Below, in pieces: positions 1-5,554 of a DNA stretch of 38,330 bases. The notes beneath the pieces are model-generated. The model made no database searches. It was given only the letters and a program-made list of their open reading frames with translations, and was not told the origin of the DNA. Location: assembly GCA_016214325.1 (NCBI GenBank), contig JACROS010000011.1, positions 1 to 38,330 on the forward strand, written 5' to 3'. This stretch comes from Candidatus Omnitrophota bacterium. Lineage in GTDB: Bacteria > Omnitrophota > Gorgyraeia > Gygaellales > Profunditerraquicolaceae. Numbering within the stretch: position 1 is the first letter of the stretch; every line of letters starts with the position of its first letter. The position numbers and the translations under genes are program-made.

Positions 1-338
1 CCAATAGCCACTGGCCCTCTCTCTTCAGTGCGGATACGCACACATTCAGATAGGTCTAAAACAAATATCTTCCCGTCTCCAGTTTCACCGGTCCTAGCTC
101 CATTAACAATAGCATTGATAGTCGGCTCCAGGAAATTATCATTCACTGCTATCTCAAGCCTGATTTTACGCAAGAGATTTCCTGTTTCTTTGGCGCCACG
201 GTAAACTTCAGTAACACCTTTCTGTCTACCATGCCCCAATACTTCACTTACGGTAATTAAATTAATTTCCTGCTTATACAATTCTTCTTTAACTGCTTCC
301 AATTTATATGGCTGAATTATTGCTATTACTAGTTTCAT
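1..338 (-). CDS. Nitrogen regulatory protein PII (C-terminus cut by window edge)
   Basis: Reverse-strand translation from ATG at 338: MKLVIAIIQPYKLEAVKEELYKQEINLITVSEVLGHGRQKGVTEVYRGAKETGNLLRKIRLEIAVNDNFLEPTINAIVNGARTGETGDGKIFVLDLSECVRIRTEERGPVAI; classic PII signatures. Directly downstream of amt. Confidence 0.95.
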   Translation of the reverse strand, partial: MKLVIAIIQPYKLEAVKEELYKQEINLITVSEVLGHGRQKGVTEVYRGAKETGNLLRKIRLEIAVNDNFLEPTINAIVNGARTGETGDGKIFVLDLSECVRIRTEERGPVAI

Positions 339-414: not shown

Positions 415-1644
415 TTATTCTAAAACTGTGTATGCCCTTTCATGATGCTGAGTTAAATCTAAACCAATAACCTCATCTTTCTCCGAAACCCTGATCCCGA
501 TAAACAAATCCACCAATTTATAAATAACAAAAGTTGTAACAGCTGTATAAACAATAGTAACAAGCACTGTTATTAACTGCACCAGAAATTGCTTTGGATT
601 ACCAAAAAACAAACCATCTGCTCCGGCAGGATTAATTGCTTTGGAAGCAAATAGTCCCGTTGCCAAAGCGCCCCAAATTCCACCAACACAATGCACCCCA
701 AAAGCATCCAGTGCATCATCATATCCTAATTTTGGCTTTATAATTGTTACTGCTATAAAACAAAATACGCTTACTAATAACCCAATTATAATTGCTGGTA
801 CTACCCCCACGAAACCAGCCGCAGGAGTAATTGCCACGAGGCCAGCTACTGCTCCACTAACTGTACCAAAAAGAGTCGCCTTGCCATTACGTAACCACTC
901 TATCAATGCCCAAGAAAGGCCTGCTGCAGCTGCTGCAGTATTAGTAACCACAAATGCGTTTACTGCCAAGCCGTTTGCCGCCAAGGCGCTTCCTGCGTTG
1001 AAACCAAACCATCCAAACCACAATAAAGCCGTTCCTAAAACTACGAAAGGCAAATTATGTGGAGCTGGCAAATGATGATCAAGATTTTTTCTTCGGCCAA
1101 TAATAATCGCAGTCACAATTGCAGCTATACCTGCATTAATATGCACAACTGTGCCGCCGGCAAAATCTAAAGCACCTAAATTTCTAAGAAATCCACCCAT
1201 CCCCCAAACCCAATGGCAAAGCGGATTATATACAAAAGTAGCCCAAAGTACGGTAAAAATTAAAAATGCCGAGAATTTCATCCTCTCAGCAAAAGCTCCA
1301 ATAATAAGCGCTGGAGTTATAATTGCAAACATCGCCTGGAAAATCATAAATGCCTGATGAGGAATCGTCGCAGCATAATCTGTATACGGCTCAAGACCCA
1401 CGCCATTTAAAGCAAACCAACTAAACCCTCCCCAAAAACCTTTCCCAGGAGCAAATGACAAGCTGTACCCAAACAAAACCCACTGCAGACTCAAAACACA
1501 CAAAACAATAAAACACTGCATCAAAACCCCAAGGATATTTTTGCGCCTAACCATACCCCCGTAAAAAAACGCCAATCCTGGCGTCATAAGCATTACTAAC
1601 GCCGAAGACATCAACACCCATGCTGTATCACCTGCATTAATCAT
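415..1644 (-). CDS. amt: Ammonium transporter (Amt family)
   Basis: 409 aa; Amt motifs (TPGLAFFYGGMVRRKN, DFAGGTVVHINAG, DDALDAFGVHCVGGIWGA). Confidence 0.97.
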   Translation of the reverse strand: MINAGDTAWVLMSSALVMLMTPGLAFFYGGMVRRKNILGVLMQCFIVLCVLSLQWVLFGYSLSFAPGKGFWGGFSWFALNGVGLEPYTDYAATIPHQAFMIFQAMFAIITPALIIGAFAERMKFSAFLIFTVLWATFVYNPLCHWVWGMGGFLRNLGALDFAGGTVVHINAGIAAIVTAIIIGRRKNLDHHLPAPHNLPFVVLGTALLWFGWFGFNAGSALAANGLAVNAFVVTNTAAAAAGLSWALIEWLRNGKATLFGTVSGAVAGLVAITPAAGFVGVVPAIIIGLLVSVFCFIAVTIIKPKLGYDDALDAFGVHCVGGIWGALATGLFASKAINPAGADGLFFGNPKQFLVQLITVLVTIVYTAVTTFVIYKLVDLFIGIRVSEKDEVIGLDLTQHHERAYTVLE

Positions 1645-1658
1645 TTTTTCCTCCCTTG

Positions 1659-2456
1659 TTAAAAATCCACATCTAATTGAAAAGTAACTGTATTTCTTAA
1701 GTTTTTATTGTTATAAATATCGTAACCAAAAATAGCTGAAATGTTATTCGTAAACTTCCAGGCAAAGCCAAAATTAAGCGCTCCATAGGAAGATTGAGTC
1801 CCCTGATAATCAACACAAAGCCAAAGCTTGTCAGATATTTCTGACATAGTGCGCTCCCAGGCAAATAACGGGCCAATGTTATCGCGTTCAGAATCTTTAT
1901 CACGCAATAGCTTTGCATTACCGTTAAAATAACCGGCAGAAAATCTTCCTAAATTAAACTTTCCAATATTAATCGTTTTCGCTCCCCTAAGATACCAAAC
2001 ATTATTATTTGTTTTATTGCGCTTTGTACCAGCATCATACACTCCGATGGCAAAAGCAGGCATGTTCTTAAAATAAGCATCTTCGCCAACACCTGCTTTA
2101 AAATGAAAATAGAACGGATACGTATCTAACGAAGAGCCAAAACCCTTCTTATAATCAAAACCTGTCTCAGCCATAATTTTACCCAAAGGCTGCCAAACAC
2201 GGCCCAATAAATTATCTTCAGGCTTATCCGACAACAAACTAAACGTAGGCCCATAGATTTGCTGAATATAAGTTTTTGTTTCATTCTTGTCCTTGCTTCT
2301 TACTGGAAAATACAAATCTGCACCAAGATGCACCTTCTTATACGGCTGAATATCAGTTGACGGCGACCAAATTAAAGTTGTAGGAGTAGCAAAAACCACT
2401 GCCACATTTAAAATAATAAACAAGAATCCAAGAATAATCACTGTTGTTCTTTTCAT
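1659..2456 (-). CDS. Predicted outer-membrane beta-barrel protein
   Basis: 265 aa; N-terminal signal peptide, alternating aromatic/polar strands, C-terminal Phe (QLDVDF); 14 nt upstream of amt. Confidence 0.6.
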   Translation of the reverse strand: MKRTTVIILGFLFIILNVAVVFATPTTLIWSPSTDIQPYKKVHLGADLYFPVRSKDKNETKTYIQQIYGPTFSLLSDKPEDNLLGRVWQPLGKIMAETGFDYKKGFGSSLDTYPFYFHFKAGVGEDAYFKNMPAFAIGVYDAGTKRNKTNNNVWYLRGAKTINIGKFNLGRFSAGYFNGNAKLLRDKDSERDNIGPLFAWERTMSEISDKLWLCVDYQGTQSSYGALNFGFAWKFTNNISAIFGYDIYNNKNLRNTVTFQLDVDF

Positions 2457-2473
2457 TTATTTATCCTCCATAA

Positions 2474-2594
2474 ATATAAAAGCGCCTTTCTATCCGTCGC
2501 TGGAACAAGAAAGACGCCTGCGTCTTAAAATTACCCTATAAATAAAAAAGCGTTCTTTATAGAACGCCTGTGTTTTATACACCTCTGTGTGTAT
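2474..2594 (-). promoter_or_regulatory. Candidate ANTAR-type antiterminator/terminator leader upstream of OMP-amt-PII
   Basis: RNA: ATACAC-ACAGAG-GTGTAT (2594-2577), AAC-ACAGGC-GTT (2574-2563), terminator GCGTTCT-ATAA-AGAACGC+T6 (2567-2544), AAGAC-GCAGGC-GTCTT (2526-2511), terminator GCGTCTTTC...GAAAGGCGC+TTTTAT (2517-2477). Confidence 0.7.
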
Positions 2595-2653
2595 TTGCTG
2601 CAAAAAGCTTAATCTTACATTACTACAAGTATGAAAAAGTTTATCCTGGTAAC

Positions 2654-3172
2654 CTAATTCTTATATTTCTTACATTTATCTCTTATTTTTGCCATCATTT
2701 TCACTACCCGCACATGAGAGACTCCGCAACGGCTTCCAATCTCTCTAGTAGTCAAACCATCAGCAAATAATCTTAAAAGCTCTTTTTCACGAGTTGTGAA
2801 GCCGTTATTAAAAATTGTTTCAGCAAGCAACCTGTCATTTAATACATTAAGAAAGTTATCTGCAGAAACATCTCTAAGAGACATGGTTTCCTCAAGGCTA
2901 CTGCTATCCTCATTAACAATTGCTTCAATACTGACAAGCCTTGATTTATCTTTTGTTTTACGCAAGTAATTCCTTAAATGGAAATAACAACCCTGCAATA
3001 TATAACTTTCAGTTTTATCTATAAGCTTACCAGATGAATAATCCTGCCAAAGATAAACTAGTGCCTCCTGGTAAAGATCGTCATTGCTAAGGAAACGGCA
3101 ATATCCGTTTAATTTGTAGGTTATTCTCTTTAATACAGGAGAAATTTTCTTTACTATTTGCTCAAATTCCAT
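2654..3172 (-). CDS. Small sigma-70-like / HTH regulator
   Basis: 172 aa; N-terminal sigma region 2-like segment (LSNDDLYQEALVYLWQDY...YLRKTK) and C-terminal region 4/LuxR-type HTH (FTTREKELLRLFADGLTTREIGSRCGVSHVRVVKMMAKIRDK). Confidence 0.65.
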   Translation of the reverse strand: MEFEQIVKKISPVLKRITYKLNGYCRFLSNDDLYQEALVYLWQDYSSGKLIDKTESYILQGCYFHLRNYLRKTKDKSRLVSIEAIVNEDSSSLEETMSLRDVSADNFLNVLNDRLLAETIFNNGFTTREKELLRLFADGLTTREIGSRCGVSHVRVVKMMAKIRDKCKKYKN

Positions 3173-3189: not shown

Positions 3190-3308
3190 AACAAAAAGCG
3201 CCCGTAATCCAAGAAACCGGATTTCGGACGCCTCAGTCCAAAAAAAAGTCTTCGCGGCATATCAACTTTGCCTTGAAGACCTCTGTGTCATGATTACATC
3301 GCTGTAAT
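3190..3308 (-). promoter_or_regulatory. Candidate ANTAR-type antiterminator/terminator leader upstream of sigma-like gene
   Basis: RNA: ATTAC-AGCGAU-GTAAT (3308-3293), GAC-ACAGAG-GTC (3289-3278), terminator GTCTTC...GAAGAC+T8 (3280-3240), GGAC-UGAGGC-GTCC (3239-3226), terminator GCGTCCGAAATCC...GGATTACGGGCGC+T5 (3231-3193). Confidence 0.7.
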
Positions 3309-3339
3309 TAACTAAAGTTTACCACAAAACGCCAACTTG

Positions 3340-3900
3340 TCAAGTCTTGCCTTTAATATCTTTGGCTAAAATTATAGCATCAGCAATCTCGCGCATGGTT
3401 TTACGGGTATCCATGCTTTGTTTCTGAATCAAGCGAAACGCTTCAGAAGAAGAAATATTTGCTTCCTGAGAGAGAATGTCTTTTGCGCGTTCAATGAGTT
3501 TACGGGTAGTTAATGCCTCCTCAGCGCTTCGCGCACGAAGGTCAAGCTCTGCATTCTCAATAGCAACTGCTGCCTGATTGGCAAGAGCAGTCAATACGTC
3601 TATTTCTTGTTTAGAAAACTTATGTTTCTTAGAAGTATAACAATTCAACACTCCAATGACCCTTGATTTAACTGATAAAGGAACACAAGCCAATGAAACT
3701 AAGTTCTCAGCTTTTGCAATATCTCGGTTCAAATAACGCGAATCTGTTCTTACATCATCAATATACACAGCCTTATTCTCCGAAGCAACAACTCCGGCAA
3801 TACCCTGCCCTAGCTTAATATTCGGCTTTTTGTTATAAGCTTCCGAGATAGATTGCGTTGCCCGCACTACCAACTCTTTTTTTTTTTTTTTTAATAACAA
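3340..3900 (-). CDS. GAF domain + ANTAR RNA-binding antiterminator, N-terminally truncated
   Basis: GAF core (GQGIAGVVASENKAVYIDDV...VIGVLNCYTSKKHKFSKQEIDVLTALANQAAVAIENA) followed by ANTAR (TRKLIERAKDILSQEANISSSEAFRLIQKQSMDTRKTMREIADAIILA). Called start is TTG beside an A16 run; the start of the GAF domain appears missing. Confidence 0.85.
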   Translation of the reverse strand: MLLKKKKKELVVRATQSISEAYNKKPNIKLGQGIAGVVASENKAVYIDDVRTDSRYLNRDIAKAENLVSLACVPLSVKSRVIGVLNCYTSKKHKFSKQEIDVLTALANQAAVAIENAELDLRARSAEEALTTRKLIERAKDILSQEANISSSEAFRLIQKQSMDTRKTMREIADAIILAKDIKGKT

Positions 3901-3921
3901 AAGCGAAGAAACTTTAGTATT

Positions 3922-5004
3922 CTAAGAAATACGCACATAATTATCCAGGCTACTGCCAAAAGCAGAACCAGGCACAACAGCTACTTTCTGATCTTTTAAC
4001 AAGCCCTGCGCAAAATCAATTGCATTCATCCCAGTTTTCTTTATTGAAGGAAATGCATAAAAAGCACCTTGCGGCTTATGACAATCCAAGCCAATATTAT
4101 TTAAGCCGTCAATAACAAACTCCCGCCTTCTCTTATACTCACGCTTCATCTCTTCAACAAACTTTCTTCCCGAAGTTACTGCCTCAGCAGCTGCCATTTG
4201 AGCGGTAATAGAAACACACATAATTGTATACTGATGAATTTTGGTCATTGCAGCAATAATTTCCTTCGGCCCGCAGGCAAAACCTACGCGCCAGCCAGTC
4301 ATGGCATAGCTCTTAGAAAAGCCATCCAGATAAACAGTATTTTCTTTTGCGCCAGGCAAGGTAGCAAAATGGGTATGTTCAAAATCATAGGTCAAATCAC
4401 AATAAACCTCATCAGAAATTACCAAAATGTTATGTTTGAGCAATATTTTATTAATTTCAGAAAGCTCTTTTTTTGTATAAGAAACGCCTGTGGGGTTTGC
4501 CGGATAATTAAGAATTATTGCCTTGGTTTTTTTATCAATATTCTTTTCCAGCTCCTTGGGATTAATTTTAAAAGCATTCTTTGCTGTATTAATATAAACT
4601 GGGATACCGCCTGCTAATTCTGTAACCGGGCCGTATGAAACATAACTTGGCTGTGGAACAATTACCTTATCCCCCGGCTCAAGAATAGAACGCAAAACTA
4701 AATCTACTCCCTCACTAACACCAACAGTAATTAAAATTTCCTCATCCGGGCAATATTCTAAACCACTTTTATTTTTAAGATAATTACTAATTCCTAATCT
4801 TAATTTGTACAAACCCTTATTAGACGTATAGGACGTAAATCCGCTTTCAAGAGAATAAATCCCTGCCTCGCGTATCGGCCAAGGAGTAACAAAATCAGGC
4901 TCACCCACACCCAAAGAAATAACATCCTTCATTCCAAGAACCAAGTCAAAAAAAGCCCTAATTCCTGAAGGCTGCATTTGTTCCACTTTTTTAGAAATTA
5001 TCAT
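3922..5004 (-). CDS. Class I/II pyridoxal-phosphate aminotransferase, C-terminus probably truncated
   Basis: PLP-lysine motif DGFSKSYAMTGWRVGF, NYPANPTGV; ends at DNYVRIS where homologs normally carry a further terminal helix. Confidence 0.9.
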   Translation of the reverse strand: MIISKKVEQMQPSGIRAFFDLVLGMKDVISLGVGEPDFVTPWPIREAGIYSLESGFTSYTSNKGLYKLRLGISNYLKNKSGLEYCPDEEILITVGVSEGVDLVLRSILEPGDKVIVPQPSYVSYGPVTELAGGIPVYINTAKNAFKINPKELEKNIDKKTKAIILNYPANPTGVSYTKKELSEINKILLKHNILVISDEVYCDLTYDFEHTHFATLPGAKENTVYLDGFSKSYAMTGWRVGFACGPKEIIAAMTKIHQYTIMCVSITAQMAAAEAVTSGRKFVEEMKREYKRRREFVIDGLNNIGLDCHKPQGAFYAFPSIKKTGMNAIDFAQGLLKDQKVAVVPGSAFGSSLDNYVRIS

Positions 5005-5068: not shown

Positions 5069-5554
5069 TTAATACGAAATAGCTATTCTCTTGTTTTCTT
5101 CTTTGTGCTTTAAAATTACTCCATCTTCTTTATATTTCTTTAAAAGAAAATGTGTAACTGTCCCGCGGACATTTTCAAGACACGCCAATTTTTCTGCAAC
5201 AAAACGGGATATATCATGTATGGTCTTACCTTCAATTACCACCAAAAGATCATACGTCCCGGAAATTAAATAACAGCTGGTTACCTCGGGAAAAGAATAT
5301 ATCCGCTCGGCAATCTTTTCAAATCCTAAATCTTTCTGAGGCACAACATTTACTTCAATAAGCGCACGGGCAAGAGAATCTTCCCTGCGCACCAATTCTT
5401 TATTAATTACCGCCTTATATTTAAGGATAATACCGCTTTTTTCCATTTTCTTAATTTCATCTTTTACTGCCTGCGGCTTTAATTTTAACATCTTTGCAAT
5501 TTCTTCAGGAGTAATCCGCCCATCTTTTTCTAGAATTTCAAGTATTTCATTCAT
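5069..5554 (-). CDS. Lrp/AsnC family transcriptional regulator
   Basis: 161 aa; N-terminal HTH (ILEKDGRITPEEIAKMLKLKPQAVKDEIKKMEKSGII) and RAM-like domain (VTSCYLISGTYDLLVVIEG). Confidence 0.85.
   Translation of the reverse strand: MNEILEILEKDGRITPEEIAKMLKLKPQAVKDEIKKMEKSGIILKYKAVINKELVRREDSLARALIEVNVVPQKDLGFEKIAERIYSFPEVTSCYLISGTYDLLVVIEGKTIHDISRFVAEKLACLENVRGTVTHFLLKKYKEDGVILKHKEENKRIAISY

Follow-up and report, generated by a model that had tools for sequence, protein, structure and literature searches.

Reading along the minus strand of the window (the whole stretch of DNA analysed here, comprising the complete 38,330-base contig C48 of a 1.48-Mb, 84%-complete genome), we see two overlapping antiterminator/terminator pairs between the gene of a GAF-ANTAR regulator and that of a sigma-70-family factor. 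This element, hereafter ‘leader 1’ (positions 3190–3308), is real and recurs in dozens of Omnitrophota genomes; the best explanation for it is antitermination by an ANTAR protein, as with EutV and NasR—a known mechanism, the binding of the protein being inferred. We consider it likely, on the basis of sequence and without any experiment in what is an uncultured organism, that this tandem attenuator, placed before a dedicated sigma gene, is the first of two layers in a nitrogen circuit. In such a circuit, the only ANTAR protein found in the genome probably releases both the sigma factor and every transcript that the sigma factor starts, generating coherent feed-forward / AND logic; a ‘two-lock’ arrangement that, as far as can be predicted, appears to be conserved across much of the phylum.

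Gene order and the GAF-ANTAR regulator

On the minus strand, the GAF-ANTAR gene is followed by leader 1, the sigma gene, a second leader (‘leader 2’), the gene for a 265-amino acid protein (without a match in a Pfam search), amt and the gene for P-II (Table 1). Bases 1–141 of the window, at the P-II end, overlap exactly with the start of a second contig (G000:C65:1-141); the two contigs are therefore neighbours, with glnN and gltBD downstream of amt-glnK. On the adjoining contig, P-II is followed by glutamine synthetase III (glnN), a small gene encoding a Fis-type helix-turn-helix (HTH) protein, and the large and small subunits of glutamate synthase. Among named relatives, Candidatus Omnitrophota isolate NC_groundwater_1513 is the closest; in a genome of the same genus, one contig carries the genes for the ANTAR protein and the sigma factor near each other, together with additional copies of the promoter motif described below.

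The regulator, encoded adjacent to leader 1, provides the single match to PF03861 in this incomplete genome. With respect to a copy that is 93% identical (L032), the window gene lacks approximately 48 N-terminal residues, with some 190 bases missing at positions 3870–3935 (minus strand), beside a poly-A run; the same deletion removes the terminal part of the aminotransferase gene that lies upstream. The GAF-ANTAR genes of relatives are intact and encode 240 residues, so that the truncation represents either an assembly error or a lesion of the strain; in both cases the RNA evidence is unaffected.

Table 1. Features of the nitrogen region of the window, in order of transcription
Feature	Position	Strand	Evidence / remarks
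GAF-ANTAR regulator gene	3340..3900	-	PF03861 E = 3.4e-18; GAF_2 E = 2.8e-18; N-terminal portion of GAF absent from assembly
Leader 1 sigma-70-type promoter, TTGACA-16-TAAACT, TG ahead of -10	3316..3343	-	
Leader 1 P1 hairpin, ATTAC-AGCGAT-GTAAT (A1, G4)	3293..3308	-	
Leader 1 P2 hairpin, GAC-ACAGAG-GTC (A1, G4), excludes terminator 1	3278..3289	-	
Terminator 1, GTCTTC...GAAGAC + T8	3240..3280	-	5' arm is the 3' arm of P2
Leader 1 module-2 hairpin, GGAC-TGAGGC-GTCC (U1, G4)	3226..3239	-	overlaps stem of terminator 2
Terminator 2, stem of 13 bp (3231-3198; single A.A mismatch) + T5	3193..3231	-	-22.6 kcal/mol, z -5.0
Sigma-70-family sigma factor gene (ECF-like, regions 2 and 4)	2654..3172	-	TIGR02937 E = 7.7e-14
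Promoter-like motif, GTTACCA-N15-TACTTGTA	2624..2653	-	directly after sigma stop codon
Leader 2 P1 hairpin, ATACAC-ACAGAG-GTGTAT	2577..2594	-	model R1 62.7 bits, E = 1.8e-13
Leader 2 P2 hairpin, AAC-ACAGGC-GTT	2563..2574	-	
Terminator 3, GCGTTC...GAACGC, T-run	2548..2569	-	
Leader 2 module-2 hairpin, AAGAC-GCAGGC-GTCTT (G1, G4)	2511..2526	-	
Terminator 4	2480..2519	-	encloses hexaloop hairpin TCC-AGCGAC-GGA (2504-2493)
265-aa protein, probable outer-membrane/exported, first gene of amt unit	1659..2456	-	adjoins amt in relatives also
Ammonium transporter amt	415..1644	-	PF00909 E = 1e-131
P-II protein (glnK/glnB)	3..338	-	PF00543 E = 7.3e-26; runs on into contig C65

Leader 1 is conserved and a probable tandem attenuator

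An earlier note on this DNA had described the hairpins and terminators of leader 1, with an ANTAR gene upstream and a sigma-like gene downstream; each named element is indeed found at its place on the minus strand, and both neighbouring genes are identified by profile matches. The 117-nt leader folds as P1 plus terminators 1 and 2 with a free energy of -42.2 kcal/mol; compared with dinucleotide shuffles this corresponds to z = -4.8, none of 200 being equally stable. The alternative P1–P2 form, taken by itself, is weak (-3.4 kcal/mol), as expected for an antiterminator that needs a protein to hold it. Within P1, the A1–U6 pair can close to leave a GCGA tetraloop.

Had the hairpins been absent from relatives that keep the gene order, the proposal would have been refuted; they persist. 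Relatives were gathered by protein search and the sequences upstream of their sigma genes read, giving 45 distinct sigma leaders, 27 of which contain the P2 pattern GAC-N6-GTCTT and 28 the module-2 pattern GGAC-N6-GTCC (26 carry both), the latter arising just 0.0017 times per 300 nt in shuffled sequence. Although neither pattern constrains the loop, A1 is found in 25/27 P2 loops and G4 in 26/27; for module 2, G4 is invariant (28/28) and U occupies position 1 in 24/28, making it a conserved feature of this hairpin, not noise. The replacement of A1 by U in the second module, as noted previously for the window alone, thus holds more widely for this leader. The stem of P1 reads GTTAC/GTAAC or GTTAC/GTAGC in relatives, and is degenerate or absent in several of them (L134, L160, L125). 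In five leader regions (L014, L040, L043, L147, L149) hairpin-rich insertions, made up of CGCC...GGCG and GCGCGGGGTGT-type repeats, sit between the modules, which are themselves kept.

All four terminators of the two leaders are present; the second module of leader 1 has no P1 of its own, and inspection by eye of the alignment of relatives found no partner that could serve as one. This hairpin looks like a P2 with U1, standing alone, and remains unexplained. It could be that the module-2 hairpins (GGAC-UAAGGC-GTCC) bind some other factor, or pace terminator 2 as folding intermediates, leaving module 1 as the sole ANTAR switch; the U1 and the missing P1 are both what one would expect in that case, and for EutV an A-to-U change at loop position 1 (A53U) impaired control, lowering induction (PMC3369931). 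Set against this, an invariant G4 combined with closure by a C–G pair and an overlapping terminator is the signature of an ANTAR P2. Moreover, module 2 of leader 2 in relatives carries A or G at position 1 in 20 of 21 cases (with G4 in all 21, position 4 again being unconstrained), and the P2 of leader 2 itself tolerates residues other than A at this position. Among hits for actinobacterial ANTAR RNAs, somewhat more than half keep A1 and G4 (PMC8164766), so that departures at position 1 have precedent. On balance we lean mildly away from a non-ANTAR role for module 2. The stronger, joint proposition—that two-level ANTAR control of a regulon comes together here with a lone U1/G4 hexaloop representing an undescribed, P1-independent form of ANTAR recognition—is offered tentatively, and we would sooner doubt it than rely upon it.

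A sigma factor and its presumed dedicated promoter

The sigma gene encodes a protein of 172 amino acids that scores above the NCBIfam cut-off for TIGR02937. In Pfam, the window copy matches a LuxR-type HTH weakly, but 18 of 19 homologues match sigma region 2. An AlphaFold2 model (pLDDT 78.8) consists of two helical domains connected by a floppy linker of low confidence, and its best fold matches in the PDB are all sigma factors (SigB, sigma-28 and the ECF protein SigL). With regions 2 and 4 but without regions 1.1 and 3 of a primary sigma factor, the protein is of the ECF type; we saw no gene for an anti-sigma factor beside its own.

Immediately after the stop codon of the sigma gene we find the motif GTTACCA-N15-TACTTGTA: two boxes with a constant core, separated by a fixed spacer of 15 bases, and non-palindromic. 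It occurs three times in this genome, once before each of the leaders for amt, glnN and gltB (a reversed control pattern is absent), and across 147 Omnitrophota genomes we count 169 sites versus 24 control matches. At the 67 distinct sites for which DNA was fetched, the preceding gene encodes the sigma factor in 41 cases, P-II in 12, glutamine synthetase in 6 and Amt in 1, while 7 sites are unassigned; almost all of the mapped sites lie within a nitrogen-assimilation cluster. Presence of the motif also follows that of the sigma gene, being observed in 67 of 72 genomes that have the gene and in 9 of 75 that do not (Fisher p = 2e-25, kinship ignored). As the genomes are related, this value overstates their independence; a fairer figure comes from outside the home family, where the motif is present in 12/17 genomes with the sigma gene versus 2/41 without (p = 5e-7). 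The reversed-pattern control has no association with the sigma gene.

The two layers also differ in promoter type. A sigma-70-type promoter precedes P2 in 21 of 27 sigma leaders of relatives, none of which has the GTTACC motif, and a sigma-70-type match is seen at only 2 of the 67 GTTACC sites. Given this split, the tracking of the sigma gene by the motif, and the location of sites in the nitrogen cluster, we conclude that one ANTAR protein probably gates both layers.

Recognition of the motif by the sigma factor is nonetheless an inference, drawn from co-occurrence and position alone, and the correspondence is imperfect: the motif is missing from five genomes that have the sigma gene, and is present in a few where no sigma gene was detected. 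Conceivably, then, the ANTAR layer is the only one, the sigma-like protein being just another of its targets, with a different sigma factor or activator reading the GTTACC promoters. We judge this unlikely, though not to be dismissed, since it leaves without explanation a two-box motif of fixed spacing that replaces, rather than accompanies, the sigma-70 promoter, that at many sites lies right against the stop codon of the sigma gene, and that tracks the sigma gene across families. Less credible again, and in our view very improbable, is that the motif is the operator of a DNA-binding regulator, with a housekeeping sigma factor initiating at a poorly matching promoter. Candidates for a Lrp-like or Fis-like regulator are at hand, in the form of a Lrp/AsnC gene at window positions 5069–5554 and the Fis-type HTH gene within the gltB unit, but the motif lacks the palindromic character of an operator, keeps its core and spacing constant, and co-occurs with the sigma gene; furthermore, P1 of the leader often begins some 10 nt past the second box, as would be expected for a -10 element.

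ANTAR-type leaders recur across the proposed nitrogen regulon

Dual hexaloop hairpins are found not only in leader 2 but also in the glnN and gltB leaders of the adjoining contig. We aligned 33 elements of the leader-2 type and built a covariance model, R1. Within the alignment, 99.2% of cells in P1 are paired, with compensatory changes observed at three of its four pairs; P1 and the terminator together yield 35 double-change cells, where shuffles yield 11.8 +/- 2.6 (0/500 reach 35), a signal that is abolished by sliding the pairing partners. No covariation is detected for P2 within the leader-2-type sequences, because its arms are almost invariant. Support for P2 instead comes from a conserved 5' arm (AAC or GAC) that lies outside the terminator, the 3' arm being common to both structures, and from arms that differ between leaders yet stay complementary (GAC/GTC, AAC/GTT, GAAC/GTTC, AACGC/GCGTT). 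The hairpin inside the loop of terminator 4 has A1 and G4 in the window; since its loop size varies in relatives, we do not claim it as conserved.

Near the motif promoters, the hexaloop is the most over-represented loop size (1.69 per site versus 0.41 in shuffles). A strict A1/G4 dual hairpin with a terminator lies within 200 nt of the motif at 17 of 65 sites, as opposed to 1 of 1300 shuffles; relaxing the first position to R1 raises this to 32 of 65, versus 4 of 1300. Hairpins are frequent in AU-rich intergenic regions, but the idea that these stem-loops are ordinary terminators of upstream genes with hexaloops by chance can be ruled out for practical purposes, being contradicted by the shuffle controls, the unconstrained loop counts, the covariation and the placement of the terminators, which follow dedicated promoters and precede open reading frames, and refuted already by their conservation.

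In a search of the whole genome, the top hits of model R1 are the amt (E = 7e-12), glnN (2e-9) and gltB (0.003) leaders; the model also matches in all 15 of the relative genomes on which it was tried. A fourth hit (E = 0.004) falls upstream of pyrG (G000:C17:14365-14430; L178), where the hexaloop hairpin TAAAC-AAAGGC-GTTTA overlaps a terminator. Many relatives keep AAAC-AANGGC-GTTT, or a longer stem, over the terminator of their pyrG leaders, and have housekeeping-type promoters there, so that CTP synthase may be a further, putative target of ANTAR control only. One additional hit, on contig C68, has the appearance of an ordinary terminator between genes and was treated as a chance match. Rfam gave no match in the window above its gathering score, only sub-threshold chance matches.

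Some further leaders deserve mention. Just upstream of the ANTAR gene itself, the model finds ANTAR-type leaders at G044:C9:23334, G033:C13:26323 and G094:C1:183949, an arrangement which suggests possible autoregulation in some relatives. Two entries labelled as Latescibacterota (L107, L108) have Omnitrophota-type ANTAR genes with a strong dual-hairpin leader, reflecting mislabelling or transfer. In one glnN leader (L115:208-250), P1 is stretched to 11 bp (tattttggtac/gtgccaaaata), far above the usual length of an ANTAR P1.

A proposed two-layer circuit for nitrogen assimilation

We propose that the housekeeping promoter just past the ANTAR gene would produce a short RNA whose synthesis, unless relieved, ends at terminators 1 and 2, yielding little sigma factor. 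Active GAF-ANTAR protein would hold P1 and P2 in their hexaloop form, thereby withdrawing the 5' arm from terminator 1; the module-2 hairpin would probably do likewise for terminator 2, allowing transcription of the sigma gene. The sigma factor would then start transcription at GTTACCA-N15-TACTTGTA ahead of the 265-amino acid protein-amt-glnK, glnN and gltBD units, and as each of these RNAs opens with an ANTAR hexaloop/terminator leader, read-through would once more need active ANTAR protein. The predicted outcome is an AND gate: ANTAR makes sigma, and ANTAR together with sigma express the proteins of ammonium uptake and assimilation. The signal that triggers the system is likewise inferred, being probably nitrogen status sensed by the GAF domain, perhaps in conjunction with P-II; neither termination nor nitrogen dependence has experimental support.

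The earlier note had anticipated that the regulator would gate a sigma-like protein and then, again, transport genes. This is supported and can be taken further, as the leaders reach glnN and gltB, and the sigma-specific motif supplies the feed-forward arm. Weighing against the circuit are the near-invariant arms of P2, the degenerate P1 of leader 1 in some relatives, the U1 and absent P1 of the second module in leader 1, the 5'-truncated ANTAR gene of this genome, and the linkers of leader 1, which at 1–3 nt fall below the EutV optimum; linkers of Eut leaders span 5–12 nt and a 3-nt linker impaired induction (PMC3369931).

If correct, this would be a compact coherent feed-forward AND gate in which one regulator combines control of initiation with control of elongation, and a prediction of how a large, uncultured phylum controls its nitrogen genes; ANTAR antitermination has hitherto been known as a switch acting directly on nitrogen operons. 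Both the promoter sequence and the RNA elements are open to testing in vitro without the organism, and the hexaloop with its conserved U1 offers a direct test of the position-1 rule in ANTAR recognition.

Comparison with known systems

Antitermination by ANTAR proteins through dual hairpins is established, including cases of several attenuators within one transcription unit, with targets that include PII, ammonium transporters, and glutamine and glutamate synthases; in Desulfotomaculum acetoxidans, at least 13 ANTAR attenuators are distributed over six transcription units of nitrogen metabolism (both PMC3369931). The tandem attenuators and amt/PII/GS/GOGAT targets of this organism resemble those described here and, as stacked attenuators are thus known, the tandem arrangement itself is not new. 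For the D. acetoxidans regulon, neither a sigma target nor a sigma-specific promoter before the leaders is reported (PMC3369931). The literature searched, from which most subscription papers were missing, yielded no description of a sigma factor under ANTAR control, none of a sigma regulon with ANTAR leaders, and no relevant paper on ANTAR proteins in Omnitrophota.

The EutV/EutVW system of the Enterococcus faecalis eut genes is alike in its P1/P2 hexaloop mini-hairpins, A1/G4 code, overlap of P2 with the terminator and multiple leaders per regulon; it differs in its longer linkers (see above), in employing a phosphorylated response regulator where the present system has a one-piece GAF-ANTAR protein, and in that no sigma layer is described for it there (PMC3369931). 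Attenuation by NasR at nasF and by AmiR at amiE shares the hexaloop code, terminator overlap and association with nitrogen genes, but concerns a single operon with a single leader, involves other sensory domains and has no regulated sigma gene described (PMC3369931, PMC7496416).

Viewed from the side of initiation, the Omnitrophota protein is like other ECF-type sigma factors in its two domains and, if it does read the motif, in a two-box promoter of constant spacing; it differs in that its mRNA is under inferred ANTAR antitermination, with a housekeeping promoter replacing the usual autoregulatory one. The Gnf nitrogen cascade of Geobacter reportedly couples control of initiation to ANTAR-type antitermination on nitrogen genes, the initiation regulator there being said to act upstream of the antiterminator. 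The proposed Omnitrophota circuit would run the other way around, with the antiterminator placed above the initiation factor and then acting once again on the targets of that factor.
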